A stretch of 64,000 nucleotides of DNA from Owenia fusiformis. Its lineage: Eukaryota > Annelida > Polychaeta > Sabellida > Oweniidae. This document shows positions 1-63,725 of the stretch, in pieces (position 1 is the stretch's first letter; each line of letters opens with the position of its first letter). Below the pieces are notes generated by a model. The model was not told where the DNA came from and searched no databases. It saw only the letters and a list, made by a program, of their open reading frames with translations. The DNA is taken from NCBI GenBank assembly GCA_903813345.2, contig CAIIXF020000003.1:11484931-11548930 (forward strand). The letters run 5' to 3'. Both the position numbers and the translations under genes were made by a program.

Positions 1-39
1 CGCCACCAACGGACCGACCCTTTCCCACAACTGTGGCCA
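1..39 (-). CDS. Possible next exon of the CAP gene, cut by the window edge
   Basis: A good acceptor (tttattttag) ends at position 40 on the minus strand. The following bases stay open in the phase left by the exon 8 donor. Only 13 codons are visible and they match no family I know, so this is weak. Between this point and 751 I see only AT-rich intron-like sequence. Confidence 0.3.
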
Positions 40-40420: not shown

Positions 40421-41480
40421 TCATATTTTTAATTTCATGTTTGAAATTTCAATTTTCTTGTCAACCATTTTTTCAATTCTATGTTTGACAATCAATATTT
40501 CTTGTTTGATATTACACTTTTTAATTCAAAGTTTTTATTCAGTTTTAGTGGTGTTGTTTAAAAATAAATCTTTAGTATTTGATTGATATTCTAAATGAGC
40601 AATTACACGTCTATCAAACTGCGAAAAACAGCTTGGAAAAGGGAAAATTAAACATCAAAGACCATAAGAAAAATGTATATATGTTTTTCTAATTTGAAGT
40701 TATCAACATTTACTTTGAATTTTTTTCCTTATTCCTTATTTGATGTTTTTGAAAAATTGCTTTGATTTTAGATTTTTTAATTTTAAACATATTTCCTTAT
40801 TTGATGTTTTAAATATATATATTTCCTTTGTTTAACTCCGGACTCTCCAAATTAAGTTCGGACTTACCGCCAGTGTACATGCAAGAATGCTTTGTAACCT
40901 CGTTTTGAATTACGCGATTCATAGTCCGCGGATGTGCCCTCGTTTTGATTCCCCATCGTGATATATATTTATGTCATCAAATTATTATTTTTTCGAATAC
41001 TATGTTCTCAATTCCCAACTACGTATACGTTCGTCAGAAAATAAGAAATTACGCCAATGAAGAATTTATTATACACTTGTCACTGGTATTTTGTATACTA
41101 GCTTTTTGTATGTCTATTTACAAATTCGTTACAATGAAACGAAATGTACACAAACGCATAAAACGGTGTTTAATGACATGAGTCCCATTAAACTACAGTT
41201 TTTTTGTTTAAAAAAGAATGACAACAATCGGGTGAATTTCATATTGACTTTATGCGAAATTTGCAATTCAATAAAAACCTTTATACTTATTGTTGGCTTA
41301 GGATTTCATGAACTACCAACATGTGTATACGATCTGATCAGTTAATTACTGAGGCATTCTACTAATGATAATATATATACAACTGTATATCCGTACTAAT
41401 TACTGTTGTAGTTAACAATGCCGTGATCATTTAAATAACTGTTTTGAAATAATTTTAATTGTTAAACAGTATTGTGGACG
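40421..41480. other. Spacer upstream of galaxin gene A
   Basis: AT-rich with no recognisable coding; two 78-84 codon ORFs at 40945-41345 have no features I can support. Confidence 0.4.
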
Positions 41481-41486
41481 ATAATG

Positions 41487-41494
41487 TATAAAAG
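41487..41494 (+). promoter_or_regulatory. TATA box of galaxin gene A
   Basis: TATAAAAG inside GACGATAATGTATAAAAG, 69 bp before the final ATG. The words GATAATGTATAAAA are kept at the same place before genes B and C, although the flanks of A and B have diverged. Confidence 0.65.
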
Positions 41495-41562: not shown

Positions 41563-44500
41563 ATGAGGAAACTTCTTTTACTAAGCCTTTTGGGGTATGT
41601 GATATCGTTAGTTTAATTTTAATTGAGATGCCGGGTTTACTAGGCTCAGTTAATGGCTCTTATAAGCACATATAAATATTTTTAACATTCATAATTGTTG
41701 CTTTAGTAGGAAACACATCTTTCTATTGGACTTATTTATATTATAACATGGTTAATGCAATATCAAATATGTCATATTCTGATTGTTTCGAACGGCTCGC
41801 AATTAGACCATCAAGACTGAAGAAACGGGAATTCAAAAGTTCAAATGAGGTCAAAACTTGATTAGGTAAACCCAGGGGAGGGGGGGGGGGGGTCGAGTAT
41901 TTTTTAGTATTCGTAGAATATTGAAATTGAAGGAAATCATATGTGATTGCAATTTGAGAAATTATGTAGTCGAATTTCATGGCATTATACGTTAAAATAA
42001 TAATTACTTTGTTTGATAATTATTTTGACTTTTGACTTTGTTTTAATGGCGTTTTTAAATGTGGTGAAACAAGTTTTCGCCTAACACATCCATCGGGACC
42101 GAATGGTAAATATGTTTTATAAAAAATAGTACGTGATTAGACAGTTTGATATGTCAAGAGAACTAGGCCGCTTTTGATCTTTTACTCTTTTACTGTAGTA
42201 TTGTAATGAAGCGAGTATGAAATTAAAATAGACTTTTGGTTTTCTGTTTGTCAATGGGATATTGGAGCCTTGTTTTTCTTCTGATTGGTAACGCCAGATT
42301 TTTTACCAACTGTGTTTTGTAGTGCTTTTTTCTTCCCCCTTTGACACTTATACCTACATAGGTTCTGGATTAATTGAACTGCATCTCAAAGTTTCGACAA
42401 TTTAATCTCCGGTTCAGAGTAGCCAATAATGGAGAGGTTAAGCTAACGATGTTTTTCACAACGTAACCGTGAACGCAAAGTACAAAAATTAACAAAGGAA
42501 TGTATCGAGCGCTCATAGTTTCATGCGCGCTTAGTCTACTTCAGATACTCTTTCAGCATCAGAGTTTCGGGTTTAGAACGGGATAATTTGAAATTTGACG
42601 TTGGGTCAACGGGAACCATTTTACTCGTGTCTATTGAACACTATGCTGTCAATTTTGATTTCGATGCACAGTTGAATTCTTGCTGAACACGATGATGTAT
42701 GTCATGCATGATTTAGCGCCAAAAATCTTACGAAACGAGCTCGTTTAAAATATGTATTAGAAAACCAGCTATAAAACCGCATCAATGACATACTATAGAA
42801 TCATTACACGCTATGGTGTAGTCTAAACAAACACTGGATTTGAACGGCTATTTATATGAGAAGGCTACATGAATTTGTATATGGTCAAGTGATACGTACA
42901 GGTTTAGTTTCGATTATATATGCAAAGCTTAACCTCTCCAATGACAGAATGGGTGCCGCAACAAAAAGGACGGGGATTAAATTGTGTCGATTGCATTAGG
43001 TTAAATAGTTAAATACAGGTACTGTAATTATCATATACACATTTACATTTGATAGCTTGTGTTTGGTACAACACATATCGGCTGGAGGTAGGAAAAAGAA
43101 TAGAAATAAAAAAAATCGCAACAAAACAACAACAACCGAGGCACCCGGTGATGGTGATGATACAGGCTTCCGAGGAGGATTCGGGGGATACCCTGGAGGA
43201 GGTGGGGAATACGGCGGCGGATTCAATCCAGACTTTGATGGCGACGGCAGGGGAAGTGACGGATGTGGAGCTGGTGGTTGCGGATCTGACACAAGTATTA
43301 CAACAACTACCCAACGACCCAATGTTAGTGATGTTGATGAACAAGGGCTGCCAATTCCTGATCCAAAGGAGGACACCACATCATCGGAGGAAGCTCCTCG
43401 GACTTTAGATGAATGTAAGCATCTTGTGTTACTGGTATACTCCTAACGTGTAGGCCAGAGCGACATGTCCAGGCATGGTTTCCCAGGGGTGACAGTCCCT
43501 TTCTCGTACATGTTAACATATCGCTTTATATCTAAGCCTAAATACAAAGCGTCAGCAGGACTCATACAAAATATGGAGGCAGGATAACTATATGCCTTTA
43601 TTACTTATTGATCTACAGTAGCTATATCTGTGTGTCACCAATTCTTTGCCATTGTAGTTTCGATTGGACCTGAAGAAGATGGCATTACATCAGCCCAGAG
43701 TGCAAAAGTTTACTCCATCCCTCCTCCTGGGTTTGACGGGTCGGATAGCAAGGCTGACGATGCTCCAGCTGAAATGAAATCTTTAACTAATGATGTGAAA
43801 ACAATAACTGAGAATAATGTTTTGGAAAGAAATTCGATCGGTAAGTCTTCATAATAATTGAATTACAATTGGTGCAGCAATAACATCTGCAAAATTGTAT
43901 GAAACATTTGCAATTCCTTCCATGACACACTAATGTAATTCCATATTCGTCAAATGCGATATCACAGATGGAAACTGTACAGCGTAAGGTAGGAAGGAGG
44001 ATTCCGCTTTTGCAGAGTGCCCGTTGCATACGAACCCCTCGATTGGTGGGGAATGGAATACAGAGTTAATTAATGTTTATATGGATGCTCCAAAACCTGC
44101 CAATGGCTAATATATACAAACTGGTGATGATTTTTAGAATGACAGTTATGGAATTTAAAATTGCTTGTATACGAATGACCTCTCCAATTGCATATATATA
44201 TTCAATTTGAACTCTTGTAAGAAATGGAATAGGTCAAATTATAACCTACAGTGTACTCTTAGTGGTAAAAAGGAACCTGAAACAATGGATCATTTCCTGT
44301 TTCAATGTGATGCATTCAGCTTTGAGCGTCTGCAAATGAACAATACACATCATGGAACATTTGATAACGATTATAACATAATTTAATATTATGAATGTTG
44401 CTTTGACGTGGTAGGTCAATGTAACAAGAAGGGGGTAGTGTAGCTTCATTTAATATTACAAATGTTGATTTGACGTGGTAGGTCAATGTAACAAGAAGAG

Positions 44501-47500
44501 GGTAGTTAAGCTTCATTTAACAATAAATCAGAAACAGTTACAATAAACATAGTAGTATTATAACCAAACCAAAGTTCCTCCATTTTGCTAATTTGACACA
44601 ACGTCAAAGTAAGCAGTTATGGAATAGTAATGAAATTGAAATAACTTAACTACAATATACTATAGAAGAGAGATGATATACGACAATATGATATTTAAAA
44701 CAATATGACAACACATACCAACACCTAGATATATAAAATATGCATTCGACAGATCGATGCATTACACCATGCAAATGTGATAATATATTCGGTTGAAACA
44801 CTTTTTATGTCCCCACCACATAGTGTGGGGCCATATTGTCGGCCTAGGCGCGTCCGTCCGTCTGTCCGTCTGTCTGTCTGTCTGTCCGTCTGTCTGTCCG
44901 TCCGTACGTCCGGCAGTTTTCTCAAAAACCGCTACAGATATCACCTTCAAATTTTCAGGGATAACTTATGAGTGCATACAGATGTGGTACCTACTCGATA
45001 CCTACTTCCTGTCGGCCATTTTGAAGTCAAATGCTAAATTCTTTGTCTGCAAACTTTAAGAAAAACGGCTTCACAGTTGCTTTTAAAACTTTATCATCTT
45101 GTTCAGCTCACTTCATTCTAGATCTGATTAGGTTTTGGACCTGTTAGCTCAATCATGTCAGCCATTTTGAATGTTTTAAGAAAAGTTACAGCACGATAAT
45201 ACTTTTGTATCATATTGAATGGTGTTTTTCAGTTTTCATACTTTAACTATTTAGTAGCTTTATAAATAATATCAGGTGTACCTTGTTGTAAAAGCCTATG
45301 TTATTGTTAACAGTAGTTATATGTGATAATTTTGTAAAAAGAAATCAGCAAAAACTCATAATCACTTTTTTATTGTCGGCCATTTTGGATTTTTCCGTCC
45401 TAAAATCTTGTCTGTAAAGTCTTGTCTACGCGTTTTCAGGTGAACCGTTTGGTAGATTAATTTCAAATTTTCAGGGATGATTTTTAGTATGAGAATCTAG
45501 ATCTGATTAGTTTTTGGGCATTCTGGGTAAATGTCAAGGCAGCCATTTTGGATTTTCCGTCCTAAAATCTTGTCTACGCATTTTCAGGTGAACCGTTTGG
45601 TAGATCAATTTCAAATTTTCAGGGATGATTCTCAGTGCATTCTGGATAAATGTCAAGGCAGCCATTTTGGATTTTCTGTCCTCAAATCTTGTCTGTAAAG
45701 TCTTGTTTACATGTTTTCTGGTTTACTGTGTGACGGATCAATTTCAAATTTTCAGGGGTGGTTTTTAGTATGAAAATCTAGAACTGACTAATTTTTGGGC
45801 ATTCTGGGTAAATTTTAAGGTGGCCATTTTGGATTTTCCGTCCTCAAATTGTGTCGGTAAAGTCTTGTCTACTCATTTTTAGGATAACCATTTGACGGGA
45901 TCACCCATAGGTGGGCACATTTTGTACACATTTGTGTTCTTGTTTAAATCAGCAATTGATTAATTGAACATCTATTTATTTTCATGAAAATATTGAATAA
46001 TCCAAAATGATTGTATTATTTATTATCTAATAATTGAGGTATTGTCAAAAAATTAAATTTATCTATTCTTTTTCAACATGGTCCCGCTGATACTTTGATT
46101 TCACGATTCCTTCAATAGATATTGGTGATGGGCTAACAGCGGACAAAATTGAAAAATCTGATACACCAAGCGAAAACAAGAACGAGGATGCTTCGATGGT
46201 CGGTCGATCAAATTCATTCACAAAAAAGTATTGGTACTATCCCCCCGCACCAGTTCGATGTGCTGGCCAATTATTCGACCCCATACGCTACTTTTGCTGT
46301 TCCGGTAAACTCTACTGGAAAACTTTCTTTTATCGTTATTATTGGTACAGCAGTGTGCCGTATGTAGACGCATGTTGCTGCGGAACGCCGTACAATTCGC
46401 AAATATCATTTTGCTGTAAAGATAGGGTGTACTCGATCGAAAAGATTGGTCGACCAGGCTATATTGGTTGCTGTAACGGCCAAGCATACAACAAAGACAA
46501 GCAGTTGTGCTGTGGTGGAAAACTGTACAACAATGAATATGGATGTAGTTTGCAATGCTGCGGTAGTAAGGCGTACAGTAAGACAAACGGCTTGTGTTGT
46601 AATGATATACTCATACCGCGTAGAGGGAACACTCCAATGTCGTGCTGCGGGAACAGCGTTTACAATCCCCAAACTGAAAAATGCTGCGGAAATTGTGCGA
46701 CAAAATTGGTTTCAGGGGAGGAGTGCTGTGGGGAAGGTATATACAAGCCTGCAACGGAGATATGCTGTGGGGGAAAGGCGTATCCCAAGAGCAGATACAA
46801 TTCGTGTTGCTGGAATCCTCCTAATGGAGTCGGTAGTCGTCCGTACGATAGTCGAAACTATTTATGCTGCGGGAGCAGAGTGTATCGTAAAATATACGGC
46901 ATTGGCACGAAATGTTGTAGCTGCTACATGAATGGGAAATACATTGCAAAGATTTATAACAACGCCAAAAGTCGATGTTGCGGGTGTCGCGTTTACACTA
47001 TGCCCAACCCCAGTTACACAAGTTGTTGTTGCAACTATAAATACTATTACTTCAATCGATACTGCCCGTACTTCCCGTATTACTATTACTTCCCCAGGCC
47101 ATACTATTACCATCACAACTATCCGACATGTAGACTTATAGATCCATCTCAACATTCCTGCTGTAATGGCAATGTATTTGATAAGTTTGGGCCATACGAC
47201 AGATGCTGTAACACTGTACGCTACGATAGAAGATATTACATCTGCTGCAATGGACAAGTGAGAAAGAGAGTGAGCCCAACGACAACAACCTGCTGTGGAA
47301 CAGAGCCGTATAACTACCGTGAAAACACATGTTGTTACAACCAGGTAGACGAATTGCCGTTGCATATATTTTTATTTCTTCATCCTAGAGTAAAAATACC
47401 ATTTCTTTCTTCAAAGCTTAAAATTATGTATTACTGGTTGGAATATTAAGTAATGATGATACATATAGGTTCTCCGAATAACTGATGGCAAACGCTCATG

Positions 47501-48414
47501 TTGTGGATACGAACTATACAACTACAAGACACACAAATGCTGTAATGGTATTGTGATACCCGGTGGGAACAACTATATATGCTGCGGGAACAGAGCGTGG
47601 GACGGCACGCTTTATGGATGTTGCGGCAATGAACCATTTTATAAACCACGTTGGAGTTGCTGTAATGGCATGAAAGTCAAAGGCGGAGGCAATGATGCAA
47701 GGTAAGTAAAACAGAATTTAAAAAATCAAATGCAAAATACGTATGGTGTATCGGCTTAGTCTCTACGCTTAAATGACAGAGGGGTGGCTAGCTTTGCAAC
47801 TGCCAAAGGGAAGGTCGTTATGCATACATATGTGAGAATACGACTTTAATATGTTTGTTATGGTTCAACCCCCACCTATAATGAAAATGTCAAACATGAT
47901 TTAAGGATCAATATTTTGTTATTTTACTAAACCGAATTAAAGGAATAAATCATTCATGATAGTAAAACGTGTGCGAGCCTCACAAGCACAAAATGACCAT
48001 CTGGGGTACCTTATTGAGAGGTAACACATGAAGCAACATCTCAGAAACACATGCCAAATAAACTATTCATAAATATAATCATACTGCTCGTAATTGTGTT
48101 TTCAAAGGTTATCATCATAACGTCTATCTTCCCCTGTTGATTATACCTGACAACATCTCTGGGCCCTAGATATGTTTACTTGTTTCATTAATGTGTAGAT
48201 TGACATAATTAATATGGTTACTAATTGCAGGTGCTGTGGGCTGAAGACGTATAACATAAACACACATTTATGTTGCTGCAGATGCATCCATCCGAAACAG
48301 TCTTCGGACCAGAGTTGTTGCGGCTCCCGCACATATGACAGGCGAAATGAGAAGTGTTGCCGTAACACTGATACGGTTGTCCCATCAAATCAAATGTGTA
48401 TTGCGGGGAGTTAA
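41563..48414 (+). CDS. Galaxin-like secreted di-cysteine repeat protein, gene A (6 exons, 738 aa)
   Basis: Exons 41563-41594, 43056-43414, 43658-43840, 46119-47344, 47469-47701 and 48231-48414 join in phase with no stop. The signal peptide (MRKLLLLSLLGLCLVQHISA) is split by intron 1. Exon 2 encodes a Lys/Asn-rich stretch, then a Gly-rich run (GGFGGYPGGGGEYGGGF), unlike genes B and C. Exon 3 is acidic (PPPGFDGSDSKADDAPAE). Exons 4-6 carry about 30 CC pairs, mostly CCGGKLY-, CCNGQAY- or CCGSRVY-like, spaced 10-25 residues apart, plus a Tyr/Pro-rich patch. This is the galaxin pattern, known from coral skeletal matrix and galaxin-like proteins of other calcifiers. It is much longer than coral galaxin. 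Exons 4-6 are almost identical to gene B, while exons 1-3 are not, so the gene is a hybrid. The matrix role is inferred. Confidence 0.88.
42409..42955. repeat. Inverted repeat pair in intron 1 of gene A
   Basis: AATGGAGAGGTTAAGCT near 42428 is inverted as AGCTTAACCTCTCCAATG near 42927, about 480 bp apart. It is possibly a small non-autonomous element; no target duplication seen. Confidence 0.4.
44165..44386 (+). pseudogene. LINE-type reverse transcriptase C-terminal remnant
   Basis: The frame ends with TNDLSNCIYIFN, then CTLSGKKEPETMDHFLFQC, DAFSFERLQ. This fits the C-terminal LRTGH.LN.YL..(C..C)....ET.EHFLF.C..Y pattern of non-LTR retrotransposon polymerases, with one expected Cys replaced. 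Only ~70 residues remain and upstream sequence is not open. It lies in intron 3 of gene A. Confidence 0.5.
44388..44521. repeat. Tandem duplication of ~68 bp behind the LINE remnant
   Basis: Two copies share TTTGACGTGGTAGGTCAATG, AACAAGAAG and TAGCTTCATTTAA-like ends. Such duplicated 3' tails are common in non-LTR elements. Confidence 0.8.
44800..45920 (+). repeat. Dispersed repeat with (GTCC/GTCT)n microsatellite and ~120-170 bp tandem blocks
   Basis: It begins TTTATGTCCCCACCACA, then GTGTGGGG. A 60-bp GTCC/GTCT microsatellite at 44846-44910 follows. Four imperfect blocks containing GCCATTTTGGATTTTCCGTC, AAATCTTGTCT and TTTCAAATTTTCAGGGATGA run from about 45370 to 45900. I recall this type of repeat as common in mollusc genomes. 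Opposite-orientation relatives lie at 4.1, 48.8 and 56.9 kb. Confidence 0.75.
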
Positions 48415-48490
48415 TTGTTGCTGAATTGAACTGTGTCTGTTGAACCATCACATATTTAACAACAACATGCATGTAAATAGTTCCAATTCA

Positions 48491-48496
48491 AATAAA
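48491..48496 (+). terminator. Poly(A) signal of galaxin gene A
   Basis: AATAAA 77 bp after the stop, conserved at the matching place after gene B. Confidence 0.6.
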
Positions 48497-48819
48497 CAGT
48501 AAATGTACTGCAATAATTACTTTCCGTTACAATAAGGTTGCTTAGCTAATGTATTTTACGAATATGCATTCTCTCAACAACCAACCTCCAGGGATTATTT
48601 TGATGTCTTTGGAAAACAAATCATTGTTACTCACCTTCTGGGCTTATCAATAAAGTTCCAAGGCAATGACTGACGGCAGATGAAACAAGCAACCTACGTC
48701 TTCCGTGCAAATAAGCAAGACGGTCTTGACGGCAAGTGATAAATTAATTGAAGGAGCTTTAGGAAAGACCGGGTGCACTTTATAAATTAAAATTGAGTTA
48801 ACATAAATGGAAAACCCAA

Positions 48820-49395
48820 ACCTTAATCGATTTTGGTCATCTTAGCAAATATCAATTCCAAGAAAGTAAACAAGACAGGGGGTGAACAGTATCCCTCCCT
48901 TGCATAGAACAGACAGTTTTCCGGACGGAAAATTCAAATTGGCATCGTTAACTCGAACGAAATGACTAAAGAACTAAATCAACTCATAGTTTTCATACCA
49001 CGACACATATATTCCTTAAAAGATTTAAAATCAACTCATCAAACGATTAAACGTATAGACAAGACTACGCTTTACAAATCTAGAAATTTCAGATGAATCC
49101 ATAAATCGGGTTTGTTTGAAACGTGTCGACAAGACTTTACAGACAAGATTTTTGGACGGAAAATCCAAAACGGCCGTCTTGCCGTCTTTACCTTTACCCA
49201 GAGTGACCATGCAAAGAAACATACCTGAAAATTTGAAATCAATCCGTCAAAAGGTTCGTGTATAAACACGTAGATATATAAACAAGACTACAGACAAGAT
49301 TTTAGACCGGAAATCCAAAATAACTGAAAATTTAAATCAATCCGTCATATAGTTTGGAGACGCCTTGACAAAATTAAGTTGACGCCCGCCAAGCA
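48820..49395 (-). repeat. Dispersed repeat copy in the A-B spacer
   Basis: GGACGGAAAATCCAAAACGG, GAAAATTTGAAATCAATCCG and AAGACTACAGACAAGATTTT repeat three times. This is the reverse orientation of the family at 44.8 kb. An almost identical block lies at 56.9 kb because it was copied with the large duplication. Confidence 0.7.
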
Positions 49396-49775
49396 AACTG
49401 ATCTAAATATGGAACCCAAGGGTGCGATACAAATACGCGTATGATAGGTATAATGACATACCAATGACTGTCCAAACATATGGTTTCCTGAATATCTAGG
49501 ATCAGGAATGGAATTTAAAAAGTTTATTCAAATGGCGAATTCAAAGGATAGCGAGAGTAAAATGTTGGCGTCAATGAAATCGGATGCCACTATTTTTCCA
49601 TTTCAATCCTTACTTTTATTTCTGACAATTAGATATCTGATTAAATTATGACAATTTAGAATACAGGTCAGTCAAGTTTCACTAGAATTAAAAGGATCTA
49701 CTTTTTCAAAATTATTGACAATATAACCCGAGTTATCAAGACCTTATGATGAAAGACAGAAAAGTGTCGTGTAGA

Positions 49776-50112
49776 CACTCTTAAAAATGAATTACTTGAG
49801 TATTTCCCAAGTATTCCCCAAGTATAAAAATTACTTAAAGTTAAATACTTAGGTTTACTTCATTTTACTTAGGGTTAACTTATATTGTCATTTTGAGTTT
49901 TTTAATTGCTTAATTATGTAAATGAGTATTACAATTACTACAGTAAGTATTTCAATTTATTTCCTTGTATTAGTAAATTCACCATAAATGAATTACTTAA
50001 AAATTACTTAAAAATTATTCAGTAGTTCAAGATTATTTAAGTAATTTTTGACTTAAAATGAGTAGTACAATTTCTCAGTATAAGGAAATCCAAGTAATCA
50101 TTTTTAAGAGTG
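49776..50112. mobile_element. 337-bp MITE with ~22-bp terminal inverted repeats
   Basis: It starts CACTCTTAAAAATGAATTAC and ends in the inverse GTAATCATTTTTAAGAGTG. The duplicated B-C spacer lacks it and reads GTGTCGTGTGGACGATC at the empty site. GA at both borders suggests a 2-bp target duplication. The interior is rich in ATTACTTAAA words and non-coding. Confidence 0.85.
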
Positions 50113-50493
50113 GACGATCATTTTACGAGCAATCACTCTACATAATTTTATTCGACAATCGATGTTCAGAAAATTCCATTATTTTTAACTTCGTGACAAT
50201 GAAGGCAAATTACACATATTCACAAAACATATTCAAAAGACCAGAATCCCATAAAACCCATCGTTTTTGTTGCATAAACAATCAGACGAGATGATTATTG
50301 ACTATATGCTATACAACTTTATGTTTATATCTCGTTGGCTTAGAATTCTGCCGGCAATGGATGATTAGTAAATTACCTATTCAACTTTTTGTTTAATTTT
50401 TAACATGTTCGCATTTACTATTGAACAACTGATAGCATCCATAAAAATGTTGAAAACGTTTCAAATTGTAAAACAATGATGTGGGCGATAATG

Positions 50494-50501
50494 TATAAAA
50501 T
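50494..50501 (+). promoter_or_regulatory. TATA box of galaxin gene B
   Basis: TATAAAAT in GGGCGATAATGTATAAAA, 58 bp before the ATG. Confidence 0.65.
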
Positions 50502-50558
50502 CGCAGAAATAACAAATTACATCATAGTTGACAAGTGCCTCCCAACGCTAAGACTAGA

Positions 50559-53500
50559 ATGCTTGGATTAAAGAGAATTTTTCTAATAGGTTTTATAAGG
50601 TACGTAATATATGTTATTTTAGTAAGTGCTTATTTCACTATGAATCATTACAAATTAGTAGGTTGTTATCATATTTTGAGTTTGACTATTTTCAGCGAAA
50701 TATTATACTTGTTTATGTTGCTCTTTTTTTCATAATACTTAAGTAAATCACATTGATATGTATACATCTGAATTCGAGTTTGTCGAACCCATATACACTG
50801 AAATTGTAATTAAGGGATGTCAACTTCCGTCACCTAGTACATTTCACTGACAGATATGTCAGTTAACTTTGAACTAATTGTGTATACTAGTGTGTTCAGT
50901 CTTATCATTCACGTATTGTAGTTTGTGCTTGGTACACTATATATCCGCTGGACAGAAAAAGAATAGGACCAAGCCTACAAAGAAACTACGCAGAACCGAA
51001 CCCCCGGAAACTACGAAAACGACAACAATAAACACAACCACATCAGATGGCAATAACGTCACAACACCGACAATAATAACCACGACCACATCAAATGATC
51101 TTGGAAAGAATAAGAATAAGAATAGGAATAAGAATAAAAAAAATAAGACTAAGGCACGCAAACCCAAACGTCCCAAGAATACGCCATTAACCACAACCAC
51201 ATCAAATGGCCTTCGTTCTGGATTAGAAATTCCCGAGTGTGTTCCTAGTGATGTCCCTGATTTTTCAGGCTATTGCCCACCCGGGTATAATCTCAAAATT
51301 CCCGAGTGTTGTGTTCCTGTACATGTGGATTTTGACCCATTCGGGGGTGGGATTTCTGGCGAAGGAAATGACATTTGTCCAACCGGGTATGAACTCAATA
51401 TAACATGTACTACAAATAGTACTACTACTACAACTGAAAAACCTGTTAGTGATGTTGACGAAAACGGACTCAAAATTACTAATCCAGTGGAGGACAAAAC
51501 AACATCTGAGGAGGCTCCTCTACCAAATGATTTAGGTGAATATTGTTTGTTAATTTTGCATTATTCTTATGTTAATGTTTGCCAAATGAAACGGAAATAA
51601 AAGAAAATAAAAAAGCATTATTACTTTACTGATTTCAGATACGTTGAGCTAAATACGTTGTGTGAAACCCCTCTTATTTGAAGATAAACTTAATCGAAGT
51701 ATTTTTTTTAGTTTCGAGTGGAGCTGAAGAAGATGGCATTGCATCGGCCGAGAGAGCAACAAATAATTTACCTCCTCCTGGATATGACGGGTCGGATTCC
51801 AAAGCTGACGACACTCCAGCGGAACTAAAATCGTTGTCCGATGAGGAAAAAACGATTTCCGAGAAAGCCGTTTTGGAAGGCAATACAATTGGTAGGTTAC
51901 TGTTTAGTCGCTTTGACATGTCTATTGAGGGCGAAGAATGCACATATATTTTGGAAGGATTAAATATTAGATGTTAACACATAAATCACATAAATTCACA
52001 ATGTGATAAATCAGAATAGGTTAGTAAAAGTGTCTGAAAAATACCGAACAAAGTCTGTGTCTTTTTATGAGAGATGCTCGAGTATAGAATTTGCTATACA
52101 ATATTTATATTCTTTTATGAACTTCTTTGTGAGAACCATGTACATTAAGTAATAGCCAGTGATTACCCAATACCCGTTCTCATATATTTATAAAGATTTA
52201 CCATTGAGTTTTTCGATCATTTCATTTGAGAATGTGGTTGTTATGAGATATAATGCACAGCGAAAAATGATAAAGTATCCTGCCTGGATACTTTCGGGAT
52301 ATTATATGAATATGGAACACATCCTTAAGAATCCGTGATAAATACTCTAAGTATCACGATTTCGGAGATGCATGGATATTATTGAGAGACGGAACACTAA
52401 TATCCAGAAATATCCGTAGTTCTGGAAACTACTGATATATGTCTCGTTTATTCACGGATACTTCAGGATTCAACTGTTATATCATTCGGATACTCAGAAA
52501 TACGGTTGAATATTCAATTATATTTTCGGGATATTTAGGGATACTTTTGGAATATTAATAAATACGGTCGGGATTCTTTACATACAGCAAGGATATTTTC
52601 GTTCACATTGACTCTAAAACTCGGAGAGCTATTTGCATACATAACATGTCCAAGCTGAGAATACATTGATATATATCGAGCATTAATATGTGAAAAGCTC
52701 TCAAAGCCCGACAAACTAAACACAAAGAGATTTAATAACTTTGTACAGTATTGACGACCTTTTTCGCTTTAAGCGGTCATTGCATACTAATACTAAATAT
52801 TTCAACTTTGAAAATGCTTCGAAGTTTATCCTAGGAGTCCAAAATAACGTTCTGAGCTGTGTCGATATTTCTTCTCAATTTATTGATATCGCGCCGACGT
52901 CAGAGAACAAGCTTCCGGTTTAATCGGCTCAGCCAGGAAGTATGCAATGGCGACTAATATTTGTGTTTGTTTCCTTAATTCGAAGCCATTTTTCAATGTC
53001 TTCGAATATCAAAATGTAGTCAACAAAAGCTTGTTAGTAAAGTGCATAACATCCCCTACAAGATGAATTCACGTTTATATCTTGAAAGTTCGACTGAAGC
53101 CAGATAAAATGAGAAAACTACGAAATGCACACACTAAAATTCGACGGATTCACAGTATTATTCAAATAAATCAGTCGACATGAAGGAAATGGTATTTCTA
53201 CTCGAGTCCTTTTTAACTTTAATACATCTTCCGTGCTTAGAAGCAAATTTTTCATCATAGAGCGGCTTATTGTTGATGTAATCGTCGATTGAATTTCCCA
53301 AACTACCACAAGTTTTTCGATGGCAGCCATCGTTTTGAGTGGTTTAGATATCACGAAGAGAATGTTGTTTCAGCAGAAGATACAATATATTTCACATTCT
53401 ATATTTGGTGAAACGCCAAACAAACGTTTTAAATACACTCAAGTTGTAAATTGAACGTTAACTATATTAATTATTCCGGATACTCAAAAATATTTCTGAA

Positions 53501-56496
53501 TACTATGGAAGTCAAGTATCCTGGAATATCCTTAATTCGGATATGTTGAAATTTGGAAACTTTGAGTATCCAGAAATATCCTTTTAAATATATTTCTGGA
53601 TATTTGAAGTATCGGTATATTTTAGGATATTCCAGAATACGACAAATATCCGGGATTTGGGATATCTATAAAAACTATTGGATACTATGCCATTTTTCGC
53701 TGTGATGTATGTGTGGGGTGGTAACATTTCTCCATTTCTAAACGATTTACTAGTCTAATTTCTTGATTATATTTTCCGATATCACCTTAAAGCTCAAATG
53801 GAACCAAGTGATACACATTATGATCTATAGAAGAATAAACTGCAATTTGAATTTAAAATGACCACCACCAGTAGTTGATTCAATTAAGGGGGAAATATGT
53901 CCAAATCATTGGCCCTACATGTGTATGCTAATTTACCCGTGTTCACGACGTCTTTTTACTGTAATAGGAACTTCTATATGGAAATGGTCAATCGTTACAA
54001 TTGAGATGAGCTCCTCTCTTGATAACAAACATAAAATTAACAATAAGGAATACATAATTATTTAACATAGTACTATGCAATACATTCTCTTCAATATGGT
54101 TCCGCTAATATTTTAATTTCATGATTTCTTCAAATTTATCTATTCTTTTTCAACATGGTCCCGCTGATACTTTGATTTCACGATTCCTTCAATAGATATT
54201 GGTGATGGGCTAACAGCGGACAAAATTGAAAAATCTGATACACCAAGCGAAAACAAGAACGAGGATGCTTCGATGGTCGGTCGATCAAATTCATTCACAA
54301 AAAAGTATTGGTACTATCCCCCCGCACCAGTTCGATGTGCTGGCCAATTATTCGACCCCATACGCTACTTTTGCTGTTCCGGTAAACTCTACTGGAAAAC
54401 TTTCTTTTATCGTTATTATTGGTACAGCAGTGTGCCGTATGTCGACGCATGTTGCTGCGGAACGCCGTTCAATTCGCAAATATCATTTTGCTGTAAAGAT
54501 AAGGTGTACTCGATCGAAAAGATTGGTCGACCAGGCTATATTGGTTGCTGTAACGGCCAAGCATACAACAAAGACAAGCAGTTGTGCTGTGGTGGAAAAC
54601 TGTACAACAATGAATATGGATGTAGTTTGCAATGCTGCGGTAGTAAGGCGTACAGTAAGACAAACGGCTTGTGTTGTAATGATATACTCATACCGCGTAG
54701 AGGGAACACTCCAATGTCGTGCTGCGGGAACAGCGTTTACAATCCCCAAACTGAAAAATGCTGCGGAAATTGTGCGACAAAATTGATTTCAGGGGAGGAG
54801 TGCTGTGGGGAAGGTATATACAAGCCTGCAACGGAGATATGCTGTGGGGGAAAGGCGTATCCCAAGAGCAGATACAATTCGTGTTGCTGGAATCCTCCTA
54901 ATGGAGTCGGTAGTCGTCCGTACGATAGTCGAAACTATTTATGCTGCGGGAGCAGAGTGTATCGTAAAATATACGGCATTGGCACGAAATGTTGTAGCTG
55001 CTACATGAATGGGAAATACATTGCAAAGATTTACAACAACGCCAAAAGTCGATGTTGCGGGTGTCGCGTTTACACTATGCCCAACTCCAGTTACACAAGT
55101 TGTTGTTGCAACTATAAATACTATTACTTCAATCGCTACTGCCCGTACTTCCCGTATTACTATTACTTCCCCAGGCCATACTATTACCATCACAACTATC
55201 CGACATGTAGACTTATAGATCCATCTCAACATTCCTGCTGTAATGGCAATGTATTTAATAAGTTTGGGCCATACGACAGATGCTGTAACACTGTACGCTA
55301 CGATAGAAGATATTACATCTGCTGTAATGGACAAGTGAGAAAGAGAGTGAGCCCAACGACAACAACCTGCTGTGGAACAGAGCCGTATAACTACCGTGAA
55401 AACACATGTTGTTACAACCAGGTAGACGAATTGCCGTTGCATATATTTTTATTTCTTCATCCTTGAGTAAAAACACCATTTCTTCCTTCAAAGCTTAAAA
55501 TTATGTATTACTGGTTGAAATATTAAGTAATGACTCGATGATACATATAGGTTCTCCGAATAACTGATGGCAAACGCTCATGTTGTGGATACGAACTATA
55601 CAACTACAAGACACACAAATGCTGTAATGGTATTGTGGTACCCGGTGGGAACAACTATATATGCTGCGGGAACAGAGCGTGGGACGGCACGCTTTATGTA
55701 TGTTGCGGCAATGAACCATTTTATAAACCACGTTGGAGTTGCTGTAATGGCATGAAAGTCAAAGGCGGAGGCAATGATGCAAGGTAAGTAAAACAGAATT
55801 TAAAAAATCAAATGCAAAATACGTATGGTGTATTGGCTTAGTCTCTACGCTTAAATGACAGAGGGGTGGCTAGCTTTGCAACTGCCAAAGGGAAGGTCGT
55901 TATGCATACATATGTGAGAATACGACTTTAATATGTTTGTTATGGTTCAACCCCCACCTATAATGAAAATGTTAAACATGATTTAAGGATCAATATTTTG
56001 TTATTTTACTAAACCGAATTAAAGGAATAAATCATTCATGATAATAAAACGTGTGCGAGCCTCACAAGCACAAAATAACTATCTGGGGTACCTTATTGAG
56101 AGGTAACACATGAAGCAACATCTCAGAAACACATGCCAAATAAACTATTCATAAATATAATCATACTGCTCGTAATTGTGTTTTCAAAGGTTATCATCAT
56201 AACGTCTATCTTCCCCTGTTGATTATACCTGACAACATCTCTGGGCCCTAGATATGTTTACTTGTTTCATTAATGTGTAGATTGACATAATTAATATGGT
56301 TACTAATTGCAGGTGCTGTGGGCTGAAGACGTATAACAGAAACACACATTTATGTTGCTGCAGATGCATCCATCCGAAACAGTCTTCGTACCAGAGTTGT
56401 TGTGGTTCACGCACATATGACAGGCGAAATGAGAAGTGTTGCCGTAACACTGATACGGTTGTCCCATCAAATCAAATGTGTATTGCGGGGAGTTAA
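50559..56496 (+). CDS. Galaxin-like secreted di-cysteine repeat protein, gene B (6 exons, 825 aa)
   Basis: Exons 50559-50599, 50922-51535, 51712-51891, 54196-55421, 55551-55783 and 56313-56496 join in phase. The signal peptide is MLGLKRIFLIGFIS plus LCLVHYISAG from exon 2. Exon 2 (204 codons) encodes Thr-rich runs (INTTTSDGNN, many TTTT), a strongly basic stretch (NKNKNRNKNKKNKTK), and a Cys/Pro segment (ECVPSDVP...CPPGYNL...ECCVP). It ends in the VSDVDENGL motif also found in gene A. Exon 3 is acidic, with PPPGYDGSDSKADDTPAE. Exons 4-6 hold the CC repeats. In exon 5 one repeat has changed from YGCCGNEPF to YVCCGNEPF. Intron 3 is enlarged by a 1.45-kb transposon. The role is inferred as for gene A. 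Confidence 0.88.
52256..53704. mobile_element. 1449-bp non-autonomous DNA transposon, 25-bp TIRs, 3-bp target duplication
   Basis: The ends are CACAGCGAAAAATG...AGTATCC and its inverse, with about 22 of 25 bases matching. ATG is duplicated on both sides (52253-52255 and 53705-53707). Gene C intron 3 has the clean empty site, AGATATAATGTATGTGTGGG. The interior carries many GGATAT and GGATACTT words in both orientations near the ends, as subterminal repeats. CAC termini with a 3-bp duplication fit the CACTA/CMC group, but this is tentative. Two minus-strand ORFs below 80 codons match nothing. Confidence 0.88.
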
Positions 56497-56578
56497 GTGT
56501 TGCTGAATTGAACTGTGTCTGTTGAACCATCACATATTTAATAACAACAACATGCATGTAAATAGTTCCAACAATTCA

Positions 56579-56584
56579 AATAAA
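56579..56584 (+). terminator. Poly(A) signal of galaxin gene B
   Basis: AATAAA 83 bp after the stop, equivalent to the signal after gene A. Confidence 0.6.
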
Positions 56585-56879
56585 CAGAAAATGTACTGCA
56601 ATAATTACTTTCCGTTACTATAAGGTTGCTTAGCTAATGTATTTTACGAATATGCATTCTCTCAACAACCAACCTCCAGAGATTATTTTGATGTCTTTGG
56701 AAAACAAATCATTGTTACTCACCTTCTGGGCTTATCAATAAAGTTCCAAGGCAATGACTGACGGCAGATGAAACAAGCAACCTACGTCTTCCGTGCAAAT
56801 AAGCAAGACGGTCTTGACGGCAAGTGATAAAATAATTGAAGAACTTTAGGAAAGACCGGGTGCACTTTATAAATTAAAA

Positions 56880-57485
56880 TTGAGTTAACATAAATGGAAA
56901 ACCTACACCTTAATCGATTTTGGTCATCTTAAATTAGCAAATATCAATTCCAAGAAAGTAAACAAGACAGGGGGTGAGCAGTATCCCTCCCTTGAATAGA
57001 ACAGACAGTTTTCTGGACGGAAAATTCAAATTGGCATCGTTAACTCAACGAAACTAGAATGACTAAAAACTAAATCAATTCATAGTTTTCATACCACGAC
57101 ACATATATTCCTTAAAAGATTTTAAATCAATCCATCAAACGATTTGACTTTAAACGTATAGACAAGACTACGCTTTACAAATCTAGAAATTTCAGATGAA
57201 TCCATAAATCGGGTTTGTTTGAAACGTGTCGACAAGACTTTACAGACAAGATTTTTGGACGGAAAATCCAAAACGGCCGTCTTGCCGTCTTTACCTTTAC
57301 CCAGAGTGACCATGCAAAGAAACATACCTGAAAATTTGAAATCAATCCGTCAAAAGATTCGTGTATAAACACGTAGATATATAAATAAGACTACAGACAA
57401 GATTTTAGACCGGAAATCCAAAATAACTGAAAATTTGAAATCAATCCGTCATATAGTTTGGAGACGCCTAGACAAAATTAAGTTG
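56880..57485 (-). repeat. Dispersed repeat copy in the B-C spacer
   Basis: Duplicate of the block at 48.8-49.4 kb, differing by scattered substitutions and small indels. Confidence 0.7.
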
Positions 57486-57890
57486 ACGCCCGCCAAGCAA
57501 ACTGATCTAAATATGGAACCCAAGGGTGCGATACAAATACGCGTATGATAGGTATAATGACATACCAATGACTGTCCAAACATATGGTTACCTGAATATC
57601 TAGGATCAGGAATGGAATTTAAAAAGTTTATTCAAATGGCGAATTCAAAGGATAGCGAGAGTAAAATGTTGGCGTCAATGAAATCGGATGCCACTATTTT
57701 TCCATTTCAATCCTTACTTTTATTTCTGACAATTAGATATCTGATTAAATTATGACAATTTAGAATACAGGTCAGTCAAGTTTCGCTAGAATTAAAAGGA
57801 TCTACTTTTTCAAAATTATTGACAATATAACCCGAGTTATCAAGACCTTATAATGAAAGACAGAAAAGTGTCGTGTGGACGATCATTTTA

Positions 57891-58010
57891 ACATTGTCTA
57901 GAAATGAAGTAACTCCCTACCCGTCTTTATCATTTGCTACATTCTTAATAAGTAATGTTTGAAAAAAACATGAACCTGCTTTTTTAACTGGTTTCCTGTC
58001 AGTTTCGTTA
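57891..58010. other. 120 bp present in the B-C spacer, absent from the A-B spacer
   Basis: Compared with the A-B spacer (CATTTTACGAGCAATC), this stretch is extra and is flanked by TTA on both sides. There are no terminal repeats, so a microhomology deletion in the A-B copy is likelier than an insertion here. Confidence 0.6.
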
Positions 58011-58378
58011 CGAGCAATCACTCTACATAATTTTATTCGACAATCGATGTTCAGAAAATTCAATTATTTTCAACTTCATGACAATGAAGGCAAATTACAC
58101 ATATTCACAAAACATATTCAAAAGACCAGAATCCCATAAAACCCATCGTTTTTGTTGCATAAACAATCAGACGAGATGATTATTGACTATATGCTATACA
58201 ACTTTATGTTTATACCTCGTTGGCTTAGAATTCTGCCGGCAATGGATGATTGGTAAATTACCTATTCAACTTTTTGTTTAATTTTTAACATGTTCGCATT
58301 TACTATTGAACAACTGATAGCATTCATAAAAATGTTGAAAACGTTTCAAATTGTAAAACAATGATGTGGGCGATAATG

Positions 58379-58386
58379 TATAAAAT
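58379..58386 (+). promoter_or_regulatory. TATA box of galaxin gene C
   Basis: TATAAAAT, same context as in gene B, 58 bp before the ATG. Confidence 0.65.
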
Positions 58387-58443
58387 CGCAGAAATAACAA
58401 ATTACATCATAGTTGACAAGTGCCTCCCAACGATAAGACTAGA

Positions 58444-61400
58444 ATGCTTGGATTAAAGAGAATTCTTCTAATAGGTTTTATAAGGTACGTAATATATGTT
58501 TTTTAGTAGTGCTTATTTCACTATGAATCATTACAAATTAGTAGGTTGTTATCATATTTTGAGTTTGACTATTTTCAGAGAAATATTATACTTGTTTATG
58601 TTGCTCGTTTTTTTCATAATACTTAAGTAAATCACATTGATATGTATACATCTAAATTTGAGTTTGTCGAACCCATATACACTGAAATTGTAATAACGGC
58701 ATGTCAACTTCCGTCACCTAGTACATTTCACTGACAGATATGTCAGTTAACTTTGAACTAATTGTGTATACTAGTGTATTGAATCTTATTATTCACGTAT
58801 TGTAGCTTGTGCTTGGTACACTATATATCCGCTGGAAAGAAAAATAATAGGACCAAGCCTACAAAGAAACTACGCAGAACCGAACCCCCGGAAACTACGA
58901 AAACGACAACAATAAACACAACCACATCAGATGGCAATAACGTCACAACACCGACAATAATAGCCACGACCACATCAAATGATCTTGGAAAGAATAAGAA
59001 TAAGAATAGGAATAAGAATAAAAAAAATAAGACTAAGGCACGCAAACCCAAACGTCCCAAGAATACGCCATTAACCACAACCACATCAAATGGCCTTCGT
59101 TCTGGATTAGAAATTCCCGAGTGTGTTCCTAGTGATGTTCCTGATTTTTCAGGCTATTGCCCACCCGGGTATAATCTCAAAATTCCCGAGTGTTGTGTTC
59201 CTGTACATGTGGATTTTGACCCATTCGGCGGTGGGATTTCTGGCGAAGGAAATGACATTTGTCCAACCGGGTATGAACTCAATATAACATGTACTACAAA
59301 TAGTACTACTACTACAACTGAAAAACCTGTTAGTGATGTTGACGAAAACGGACTCAAAATTACTAATCCAGTGGAGGACAAAACAGCATCTGAGGAGGCT
59401 CCTCTACCAAATGATTTAGGTGAATATTGTTTGTTAATTTTGCATTATTCTTATGTTAATGTTTGCCAAATGAAACGGAAATAAAATAAAAAAGCATTAT
59501 TACTTTACTGATTTCAGATACGTTGAGCTAAATACGTTGTGTGAAACCCCTCTTATTTGAAGATAAACTTAATCGAAGTATTTTTTTTAGTTTCGAGTGG
59601 AGCTGAAGAAGATGGCATTGCATCGGCCGAGAGAGCAACAAATAATTTACCTCCTCCTGGATATGACGGGTCGGATTCCAAAGCTGACGACACTCCAGCG
59701 GAACTAAAATCGTTGTCCGATGAGGAAAAAACGATTTCCGAGAAAGCCGTTTTGGAAGGCAATACAATTGGTAGGTTACTGTTTAGTCGCTTTGACATGT
59801 CTATTGAGGGCGAAGAATGCACATATATTTTGGAAGGATTAAATATTAGATGTTAACACATAAATCACATAAATTCACAATGTGATAAATCAGAATAGGT
59901 TAGTAAAAGTGTCTGAAAAATACCGAACAAAGTCTGTGTCTTTTTATGAGAGATGCTCGAGTATAGAATTTGCTATACAATATTTATATTCTTTTATGAA
60001 CTTCTTTGTGAGAACCATGTACATTAAGTAATAGCCAGTGATTACCCAATACCCGTTCTCATATATTTATAAAGATTTACCATTGAGTTTTTCGATCATT
60101 TCATTTGAGAATGTGGTTGTTATGAGATATAATGTATGTGTGGGGTGGTAACATTTCTCCATTTCTAAACGATTTACTAGTCTAATTTCTTGATTATATT
60201 TTCCGATCTATAGAAGAATAAACTGCAATTTGAATTTAAAATGACCACCACCAGTAGTTGATTCAATTAAGGGGGAAATATGTCCAAATCATTGGCCCTA
60301 CATGTGTATGCTAATTTACCCGTGTTCACGACGTCTTTTTACTGTAATAGGAACTTCTATATGGAAATGGTCAATCGTTACAATTGAGATGAGCTCCTCT
60401 CTTGATAACAAACATAAAATTAACAATAAGGAATACATAATTATTTAACATAGTACTATGCAATACATTCTCTTCAATATGGTTCCGCTAATATTTTAAT
60501 TTCATGATTTCTTCAAATTTATCTATTCTTTTTCAACATGGTCCCGCTGATACTTTGATTTCACGATTCCTTCAATAGATGTTGGTGATGGACTAACAGC
60601 GGACAAAATTGAAAAATCTGATACACCAAGCGAAAACAAGAACGAGGATGCTCTGATGGTCGGTCGATCAAATTCATTCACAAAAAAGTATTGGTACTAT
60701 CCCCCAGCACCAGTTCGATGTGCTGGTCAATTATTCGACCCCATACGCTACTTTTGCTGTTCCGGTAAACTCTACTGGAAAACTTTCTTTTATCGTTATT
60801 ATTGGTACAGCAGTGTGCCGTATGTCGACGCATGTTGCTGCGGAACGCCGTACAATTCGCAAATATCATTTTGCTGTAAAGATAAGGTGTACTCGATCGA
60901 AAAGATTGGTCGACCAGGCTATATTGGTTGCTGTAACGGCCAAGCTTACAACAAAGGCAAGCAGATGTGCTGTGGTGGAAAACTGTACAACAATGAATAT
61001 GGATGTAGTTTGCAATGCTGCGGCAGTAAAGCGTACAGTAAGACAAACGGCTTGTGTTGTAATGATATACTTATACCGCGTAGAGGGAACACTCCAATGT
61101 CGTGCTGCGGGAACAACGCTTACAATCCCCAAACTGAAAAATGCTGCGGAAATTGTGCAACAAAATTGGTTTCAGGGGAGGAGTGCTGTGGGGAAGGTAT
61201 ATACAAGCCTTCAACGGAAATATGCTGTGGGGGAAAGGCGTATCCCAAGAGCAGATACAATTCGTGTTGCTGGAATCCTCCTAATGGAGTCGGTAGTCGT
61301 CCGTACGATAGTAGAAACTTTTTGTGCTGCGGGAGCAGAGTGTATCGTAAAATATTCGGCATTGGCACGAAATGTTGTAGCTGCTACATGAATGGGAAAT

Positions 61401-63725
61401 ACATTGCAAAGATTTACAACTACGCCAAAAGTCGTTGCTGCGGCTGTCGCGTTTACACAATGCCCAACCCCAGCTACACAAGATGTTGTTGCAACTATAA
61501 ATACTATTACTTCAATCGATACTGCCCGTACTTCCCGTATTACTATTACTTTCCCAGGCCATACTATTACCATCACAACTATCCGACATGCCGACTTATA
61601 GATCCATCGCAACATTCCTGCTGTAATGGCAATGTATTTGATAAGTTTGGGCCATACGACAGATGCTGTAACACTGCACGTTACGATAGAAGATATTACA
61701 TATGCTGCAATGGACAAGTGAGAAAAAGAGTGAGCGCAACGACAACAACTTGCTGTGGAACAGAGCCGTATAACTACCGTGAAAACACATGTTGTTACAA
61801 CCAGGTAGACGAATTGCCGTTGCATATATTCTTGCTAATAACGGTTTTCATACCAAATATGATATGGGAGATTTATATCAAAAATCTATATCAAGAGATC
61901 TTGCAAAAGTATCTCTAGTGAGTGCAGTTAAGATGTCATTTCTTCCTTCAAAGCTTAAAATATGTATACTGATTGAAATATTAGTATCACTTGATGATAT
62001 AGGTTCTGCGAATAACAGATGACAAACGCTCGTGTTGTGGATACGAACTATACAACTACAAGACACACAAGTGCTGTAATGGCATTGTGGTCCCCGGTGG
62101 AAACAATCATATATGCTGCGGGAACAGAGCGTGGGACGGCACGCTTTATGGATGTTGCGGCAATGAACCATTTTATAAACCACGTTGGAGTTGCTGTAAT
62201 GGCATGAAAGTCAGCGGTGGAGGCAATGATGCAAGGTGAGTTATAAGAAGTTTGTGGTATCTCCGTTACGGTGTAATGACACACATCGAATGATATAATA
62301 TTTGTTATATGATATTAATTATGTTTACAATATCTAGTATTAATCTATAGTATCTTAGAACTAAATCAGAAAAATGCATTCTGAATTCACATATTTGTGT
62401 ATCCATGTGAATCAATTAAAATGATTCATACAGGATTCACATTTGTGTGTATCCATGTAAATCCATTGACAGGATTCACATTTGTGTGTATCCATTGATT
62501 CAAACAGGATTCATGTTTGTGTGTATCCATGTGATTCCTTGGACAGGATTCATACAGGATTCACAGTTGTGTGTATCCATATGAATCCATTCACAGAATT
62601 TATACAGGATTCACATTTGTGTGTATCCATGTGAATCCGTTGGCAGGATTCGTACAGGATTCACATTTGTGTGTATCCATTGACAGGATTCAAACAGGAT
62701 TCACGTTTGCGTGTATCCATGTGAACCCATTGACAAGATTCATACAGGATTCACGTGTGTGTGTATCCATGTGAATCCATTGACAAAATTCATACAGGAT
62801 TCACCTTTTGTGTATCCATGTGAATCCATTGACAGGATTTATACAGGATTCACATTTGTGTGTATCCATGTGAATCCGTTGGCAGGATTCGTACAGGATT
62901 CACATTTGTGTGTATCCATTGACAGGATTCAAACAGGATTCACGTTTGTGTGTATCCATGTGAATCCATTGACAAGATTCATACAGGATTCACGTTTGTG
63001 TGTATCCATATGAATCCATTGACAAGATTCATACAGGATTCACATTTGTGTGTATCCATGTGAATCCATTAACAGAATTTATACAGGATTCACATTTGTG
63101 TGTATCCATGTGAATTCGTTGACAGGATTCGTACAGGATTCATATTTCTGTGCATCAATGTGAATCCATTGAAAGAAATCATATTAGATTCACATTTTTG
63201 TGTATTCATGTGAATTCATTTACAGGATTCATACAGGATTCACATTTTGTGTGTATCCATGTGCATATATTTACACGATTCATTCAATATTTGCACACTG
63301 AGAGTACAGTTCGTATAAATCCAGTATGTATCCATGCGAATACAGTCACAGGATTCATACAGGATTGGCACATCGCGAATGTATCCATGTGAATCCAGAC
63401 GCCTTGATTCATAAGGATTGACAGCAAAGGATCCTGTAAGATGTGAAGTGTTATTAGTGACAAGGGTCTGCGTATATTTGGTTATCTATAAAGCTGCAAT
63501 ATTACTCTTCAGTTGCGATCACTGCGTGTCTTGTATTTCAGATGCTGTGGACTGAAGACGTTTAACAGAAACACTCATATGTGTTGCTGCAGATGCATCC
63601 ATCCGAAACAGTCCTCGTACCAGAGTTGTTGCGGCTCCCGCACATATGACAGGCGAAATGAGAAGTGTTGCCGTAACACTGATACGGTTGTCCCATCAAA
63701 TCAAATGTGTATTGCTGGGAATTGA
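58444..63725 (+). CDS. Galaxin-like secreted di-cysteine repeat protein, gene C (6 exons, 825 aa)
   Basis: Exons 58444-58484, 58806-59419, 59591-59770, 60579-61804, 62003-62235 and 63542-63725 join in phase. Exons 1-3 are nearly identical to gene B; exon 3 encodes the same protein. Exons 4-6 are more diverged from A and B (for example QMCCGG for QLCCGG, RCCCNYK for SCCCNYK, DDKRSCC for DGKRSCC). Introns 4 and 5 and the 3' flank differ from A/B outright. Every CC pair is kept, which argues for selection on the repeat scaffold. Intron 5 is filled by a 50-bp minisatellite. Gene C appears to be the older 3' end of the array, joined to a recently copied 5' half. Confidence 0.88.
62366..63412. repeat. 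Hairpin-forming minisatellite (~50-bp unit, about 20 copies) in intron 5 of gene C
   Basis: The consensus runs GTGTGTATCCATGTGAATCC, ATTGACAGGATTCATACAGG, ATTCACATTT. GGATTCACAT is followed 12 bases later by its exact inverse ATGTGAATCC, so each unit can fold into a 10-bp stem. Units vary by substitution and short deletions, most at the right end. Open frames through it are incidental. Confidence 0.92.

Follow-up and report, generated by a model that had tools for sequence, protein, structure and literature searches.

Galaxin-like proteins recur among animal skeletons, being known from corals, from calcareous sponges and from the shells of molluscs, and the diversification of the family is poorly resolved. 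Coral galaxin (Galaxea fascicularis, Acropora) is composed of repeats of approximately 30 amino acids (aa) with two di-cysteine (di-Cys) motifs each and carries a reported dibasic processing site; the Acropora protein is 338 aa long, has a mature isoelectric point (pI) of 4.52 and is described as having no acidic domain (PMC2726143). Amgalaxin-like 1 and 2 of Acropora millepora (660 and 582 aa) have an acidic domain that follows the signal peptide and precedes the di-Cys repeats, and in Amgalaxin-like 1 this domain has a pI of 3.21 and the Cys-rich region a pI of 12.39 (PMC2726143). The calcarins of Sycon ciliatum are secreted proteins with 10–23 di-Cys, spaced 10–15 residues apart and flanked on either side by a single Cys, and they are predicted, as are galaxins, to form beta-hairpins joined by di-Cys (PMC12419799). 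The same report describes galaxin-like genes in pairs, triplets or series: Cal12, Cal4, Cal6 and Cal2 follow one another on one Sycon chromosome, and galaxin/galaxin-like genes are neighbours in Acropora, with duplication and altered expression proposed (PMC12419799). Cysrichin of the freshwater mussel Hyriopsis cumingii (163 aa, five repeats and no long head) has a shell role supported by RNA interference (RNAi) and in vitro work (PMC10045328). Galaxins have also been named among slipper-snail shell proteins and among bivalve shell-secretion genes. Here, we describe three tandem galaxin-like genes in a 64,000-nucleotide stretch of the genome of the annelid Owenia fusiformis (contig CAIIXF020000003.1, positions 11,484,931–11,548,930; hereafter the window, within which all positions are given), the second of which reads as a mosaic of its two neighbours.

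Coding status and family membership of the three genes

All three genes lie on the plus strand. Gene 1 (41563–48414) has exons of 32, 359, 183, 1226, 233 and 184 nt: exon 1 (41563–41594) with the start codon and a signal-peptide-like segment, exon 2 (43056–43414) encoding the Gly/Asp-rich part of what we call the A head, exon 3 (43658–43840), which is acidic as judged by pI, exon 4 (46119–47344) with the end of the head, a KK site and 21 di-Cys runs, exon 5 (47469–47701) with di-Cys repeats, and exon 6 (48231–48414) with further di-Cys repeats and the stop codon. Genes 2 (50559–56496) and 3 (58444–63725) both have exons of 41, 614, 180, 1226, 233 and 184 nt. Those of gene 2 are located at 50559–50599, 50922–51535 (the B head, Thr/Lys/Asn-rich in composition and with six further Cys), 51712–51891 (acidic), 54196–55421 (an A-type body by its identity), 55551–55783 and 56313–56496, and those of gene 3 at 58444–58484, 58806–59419 (B head), 59591–59770 (acidic), 60579–61804 (a body that is older-diverged by synonymous divergence), 62003–62235 and 63542–63725. 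Every intron (15 of 15) is bounded by GT and AG, and the phases (2, 1, 1, 0, 2) are identical in each gene. The spliced coding sequences encode 738, 825 and 825 aa, and the sole in-frame stop is the last codon, versus 18–21 and 66–73 stops in the other two frames. When the models were rebuilt, the coordinates of the three stop-free, phase-keeping genes described in an earlier note on this DNA proved exact; its 18 predicted junctions should be 15, which is what 18 exons in three genes give.

The proteins contain 30, 31 and 31 di-Cys runs, respectively, and 30 lie in every body, the extra run of genes 2 and 3 being located in the head. Shuffled versions of the gene 1 protein (n=2000) contained 6.8 runs on average and 15 at most, versus the 30 observed. 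In gene 1, 24 of the 29 spacings between runs are 13–16 residues (exactly 13 in 12 cases), the irregular ones being 26, 19, 20, 21 and 45 residues, and the periodicity is two di-Cys per approximately 29 residues. Single Cys residues flank the array, 12 residues before and 14 after it. The earlier note had described secreted proteins of 738–825 aa with approximately 30 di-Cys repeats; our counts agree with this, and a hydrophobic, signal-peptide-like N-terminus was recognized by eye in all three proteins.

The galaxin assignment made in that note was also upheld by a profile search, in which all three proteins matched Pfam Galaxin_repeat (PF24748) in five stretches each, with E values of 9.7e-57, 2.7e-56 and 1.5e-56 and scores of 191, 189.6 and 190.3 bits, the cut-off being 28. 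By these matches, their membership in the galaxin/galaxin-like family is secure. Matches to the Pfam families GRP, YxzE, CCDC106 and VKGC fell under their cut-offs and reflect composition, and two sequence matches to solved structures (Mediator subunit 31; E 0.11 and 0.3) are weak and were taken as chance.

Substitutions between the genes are patterned as in coding sequence, apart from the young heads of genes 2 and 3. Nonsynonymous changes account for 25 of the 66 differences between the bodies of genes 1 and 3 (52.9 expected; P 8e-14), for 9 of 16 between the bodies of genes 1 and 2 (P 0.026) and for 138 of 212 between the heads of genes 1 and 2 (P 7e-5); the heads of genes 2 and 3 are nearly identical, and their 5 nonsynonymous changes among 8 (P 0.28) are uninformative on constraint. 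The window holds no copies or relics of the family beyond the three genes, because the tblastn matches obtained with genes 1 and 2 (43 and 42 rows) all fall within their exons and the pattern CC-10..15-CC had no match below position 41500 on either strand.

Mosaic pattern of gene 2 and the junction tract

In each protein, the head extends from after the signal-peptide-like start to the KK pair (exons 1–3 and the first 37 residues of exon 4), and the body comprises the rest of exon 4 and exons 5–6. Gene 2 reads as a B head joined to an A body, because its head matches that of gene 3 and its body that of gene 1, a pattern that the earlier note does not describe. Genes 1 and 2 are strongly divergent from exon 1 through intron 3, with exons 2 and 3 58% and 76% identical and introns 1 and 2 aligning no better than shuffled sequences. 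The identity then rises to 99.3, 99.1 and 97.3% in exons 4, 5 and 6, to 96.8% in intron 4 and 99.1% in intron 5, and to 98.4% in the first 250 bases downstream. Between genes 2 and 3, identity is 97.6–100% in exons 1–3 and, where alignable, 95.6–100% in introns 1–3 (intron 1, 95.6%; intron 2, 100%), and it is 96.4, 94.0 and 92.9% in exons 4, 5 and 6; intron 5 (48%) and the downstream sequence (50%) are at the level of unrelated sequence. Synonymous divergence (dS) is 1.0 between the A and B heads (genes 1 and 2), a rough value given the uncertain alignment of exon 2, and 0.016 between the heads of genes 2 and 3; it is 0.022 between the bodies of genes 1 and 2 and 0.14–0.15 between the body of gene 3 and those of genes 1 and 2. 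At the exon 4 sites where one gene differs, genes 1 and 2 are grouped from position 3 on.

A perfectly identical 66-bp tract that spans the border of intron 3 (its final 64 bases) and exon 4 (its first two) is common to the three genes (plus strand; 46055–46120 in gene 1, 54132–54197 in gene 2 and 60515–60580 in gene 3). The similarity between genes 1 and 2 begins exactly at 46055/54132 and extends past the gene ends into the next head; because of this, a unit of approximately 8.1 kb (A body, spacer and B head) is recognized in two tandem copies bordered by the tract, the gene 1 tract marking the left end of the duplicated unit, the gene 2 tract the junction of the two unit copies and the putative crossover point, and the gene 3 tract the right end of the second unit copy. 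Unequal crossing-over is the best reading of this mosaic.

Directly before the tract, intron 3 of gene 2 contains a degenerate second copy of the splice-acceptor region (54084–54131, plus strand, 48 bp), which is identical at 60467–60514 in gene 3; its alignment score was 30, versus at most 16 in 1000 shuffles, and no such copy was found in gene 1. It may be read as B's own acceptor, left over when B received its body in an older event, and a local duplication would explain it too. The idea that the 66-bp identity proves an old transfer was also considered and rejected, since constraint or repair at the recent crossover would preserve the identity as well; because of these other possible causes, we only infer the order of the older event.

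Between genes 1 and 3, intron 4 aligns with a score of 44 (at most 21 in 100 shuffles), intron 5 and the 3' flank are not alignable (scores reached by 10 and 20 of 100 shuffles, respectively), and exons 5 and 6 are 93–94% identical despite the unalignable intron 5. For these reasons, either the gene 3 body may have been homogenized exon by exon, or its intron 5 and 3' flank may have been replaced. Intron 5 of gene 3, and of this gene only, contains a minisatellite (62497–63283, approximately 50-bp period, 16 copies) that fills much of the intron.

Two insertions were seen in the duplicated region. Intron 3 of gene 2 carries a 1449-bp insertion (52256–53704) that looks like a non-autonomous DNA transposon: its terminal inverted repeats are 14 bp long, and ATG is apparently duplicated as the target site. 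Intron 3 of gene 3 has the matching empty site. A 337-bp element with 15-bp terminal inverted repeats lies between genes 1 and 2 (49776–50112) and is absent from the corresponding position between genes 2 and 3.

Proposed history and role of the array

We consider it probable that the locus is a tandem array of galaxin-like matrix-precursor genes in which gene 2 is a hybrid generated by unequal crossover. This account starts from the observed gene models, family match, mosaic pattern and tract, to which it would add a crossover mechanism, a fold, a cleavage and a matrix role. The array would evolve through recombination where head and body meet: the A and B heads, old paralogues of one another (dS ~1), would have come first, and their bodies would have been homogenized later (dS ~0.14). 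An A gene and a B gene would then have undergone one unequal crossover in intron 3, within the 66-bp tract, which would have duplicated the 8.1-kb unit and created gene 2 as an in-frame B-head/A-body hybrid (dS ~0.02).

Each gene would encode a two-part secreted extracellular-matrix precursor with a low-complexity, net-acidic head and a net-basic di-Cys body. The gene 1 head (208 residues, Gly-rich with Asp) has a pI of 4.42 and a net charge of -15, and the heads of genes 2 and 3 (292 residues each, Thr/Lys/Asn-rich with extra Cys) have a pI of 5.18 and a net charge of -6; N-X-S/T motifs occur upstream of the body in the B heads, five in gene 3 and otherwise six. The part encoded by exon 3 is acidic in all three proteins (pI 4.18, 4.05 and 4.05). 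The body has 510 residues in each gene, with 30 di-Cys motifs, 14.1% Cys, 11–12% Tyr, a pI of 8.85–8.91 and a net charge of +36 to +40. The body most likely adopts a ladder-like fold in which di-Cys pairs hold short beta-hairpins, and it most likely acts as a cross-linked matrix scaffold, and the head, possibly released at the KK pair, would modulate mineral, water or other matrix molecules. Cleavage at the KK pair before the body would fit the dibasic processing of coral galaxins; given the many dibasic pairs in each protein, it is a weak analogy and a guess. For the fold, exon 4 was modelled by AlphaFold2 from the single sequence, which yielded 34 short strands, mostly paired about a two-residue turn, with 16 of the 21 di-Cys runs in or beside a strand. 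A 185-residue piece modelled separately reached a predicted local distance difference test score (pLDDT) of 71.0 and a predicted template modelling score (pTM) of 0.42. This modelling agrees with the published prediction of hairpins joined by di-Cys, without proving it; no disulfides were visible in the output.

Several observations weigh against this account. As 51% of the exon 4 residues lie in or beside strands, 16 of 21 runs is only a modest excess; the confidence of the exon 4 model is low (mean pLDDT 52.2, pTM 0.27); and a Foldseek search of the 185-residue model against the PDB gave 11 matches up to E 10, none of them at or below 0.001. Dibasic pairs number 8 in gene 1 and 12 in each of genes 2 and 3, the KK pair being one of these in each protein. 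The part encoded by B-type exon 2 (genes 2 and 3) is net basic (pI 8.77), the acidity of these two heads being located in exon 3 (pI 4.05). Two further objections, the level of divergence between the unit copies and the reported role of a squid galaxin, belong to alternative explanations.

The divergence of approximately 2% between the unit copies could be that of two haplotypes. Gene 2 would then be an assembly artefact, with only two genes present and the two haplotypes strung in tandem after a jump at the 66-bp tract, an explanation that we regard as doubtful but deserving of some weight. The uniformly low divergence of both halves of the unit (dS 0.022 and 0.016), together with two insertions present in one unit copy only, is what alleles of a highly heterozygous animal would show and speaks for it, as does a join exactly at a perfect shared tract. 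However, unequal crossing-over would lead to an identical join and to equally uniform divergence, and in none of the three genes is an exon phase or either splice site disrupted.

A matrix role itself could be questioned, because EsGal1 of the squid Euprymna scolopes is reported to be antimicrobial and to influence symbiont growth (PMC5216023, PMC7853314), and the strongly basic bodies would suit such an immune or symbiosis role. The long acidic, Thr-rich heads with N-glycosylation motifs and the 30-motif body are nevertheless closer to skeletal galaxin-like proteins, and we regard a role of this kind in place of a structural one as unlikely. Strong constraint since the A/B split, with no transfer or homogenization between genes, would fit the body ratio of nonsynonymous to synonymous divergence (omega 0.13–0.14, gene 3 versus genes 1 and 2) but is highly improbable as the cause of the low body divergence, in view of a body dS (0.02–0.15) far below the head dS (~1.0), the near-identity of genes 1 and 2 in introns 4 and 5 (96.8% and 99.1%) beside unalignable introns 1–3, and the alignment of intron 4 of genes 1 and 3 well above 100 shuffles.

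Extending the hybrid-array account, we tentatively suggest that the locus could be a head-swapping array, in which a single disulfide-ladder body, continually homogenized, is joined to diversifying heads that are acidic, Gly-rich or glycosylatable. Recombination would be focused at the intron 3/exon 4 border, and new matrix proteins would arise as in-frame hybrids; two successive exchanges would be recorded there, namely an older body homogenization, which left the intron 3 acceptor remnant, and the recent hybrid gene.

Surroundings of the array and comparison with known systems

Upstream of gene 1, a TATA-containing 21-bp block (41473–41493, plus strand) has 20 of 21 bases in common with genes 2 and 3, where the blocks (50480–50500 and 58365–58385) are kept at at least 20 of 21 positions. 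Alignment of 500 bp of 5' flank from gene 1 with that from gene 3 gave a score of 79, versus at most 32 for shuffles. Because of this conservation, the old A and B promoters would still be related, which would fit shared expression.

Elsewhere in the window, pieces on the minus strand (735–14313) resemble one secreted gene by eye and by motif, with a CAP-like first exon (13906–14313), a CAP motif of the GHYTQ type around position 6249, and a last exon (735–1262) that is Thr-rich and EGF-like; a Pfam search of the two end pieces gave no support. Among these pieces lies a single-exon mitochondrial carrier gene on the plus strand (6766–7743; Mito_carr, E 3.7e-67). An ankyrin-repeat open frame (28846–29640; Ank_2, E 3e-29) has a Lys/Ser/Asp-rich repetitive tail. 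The region 26350–27909 is a minisatellite with a 75-bp period and approximately 20 copies that is open in several frames on both strands, and its long open frames are probably not genes. Rfam and tRNA scans of the window found nothing.

In a search of viral contigs for relatives, a pattern matched eight stretches, none of which encodes a relative. A literature search found no mention of peptides from the window. No account of a head/body hybrid galaxin gene was found in a targeted, ranked search, judged by the best 8 of 1,263 papers, none of which contains the word galaxin, and a published instance may still have been missed. If the mosaic is real, the locus would provide evidence, base by base, that the N-terminal head evolves as a unit distinct from the di-Cys body and that the two recombine, and it would offer natural B-head/A-body and B-head/B-body pairs for probing head function.

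By its sequence, the locus is an additional member of an already known protein family. The acidic N-terminal part, which the earlier note believed absent from coral galaxin, is real but not new to the family, as Amgalaxin-like 1 and 2 carry an acidic domain; nor is the acidic-head/basic-body architecture new to galaxins, because in these Acropora proteins the parts follow one another in the same way and are likewise divided into acidic and basic. The novelty that the note saw in the cluster is also reduced, neighbouring galaxin-like genes being already published for Acropora and Sycon (PMC12419799), and that the cluster would be a lineage-specific biomineralisation or tube/egg-matrix system is a conjecture of the note.

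Cysrichin is likewise galaxin-like with di-Cys repeats, but the Owenia proteins have a long head. EsGal1 is also called a galaxin, with a reported antimicrobial/symbiosis role (PMC5216023, PMC7853314). The Owenia proteins share with coral galaxin the repeats of approximately 30 aa with two di-Cys each, and differ from it in their basic body and in being more than twice as long. They resemble the calcarins in the single Cys at both array ends, the di-Cys spacing, the predicted hairpins and the clustering of the genes, and differ in having 30 di-Cys; the available part of the calcarin report describes no head/body hybrid. Amgalaxin-like 1 and 2, compared by description, have the same succession of signal peptide (in the Owenia proteins a signal-peptide-like start), acidic domain and di-Cys repeats and the same bipartite charge, whereas the Owenia proteins are 738–825 aa long, with 30 body di-Cys and Gly- or Thr/Lys/Asn-rich heads that are less acidic overall (pI 4.4–5.2). 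Overall, the locus offers a better-than-ordinary recombination record within an otherwise ordinary family membership.

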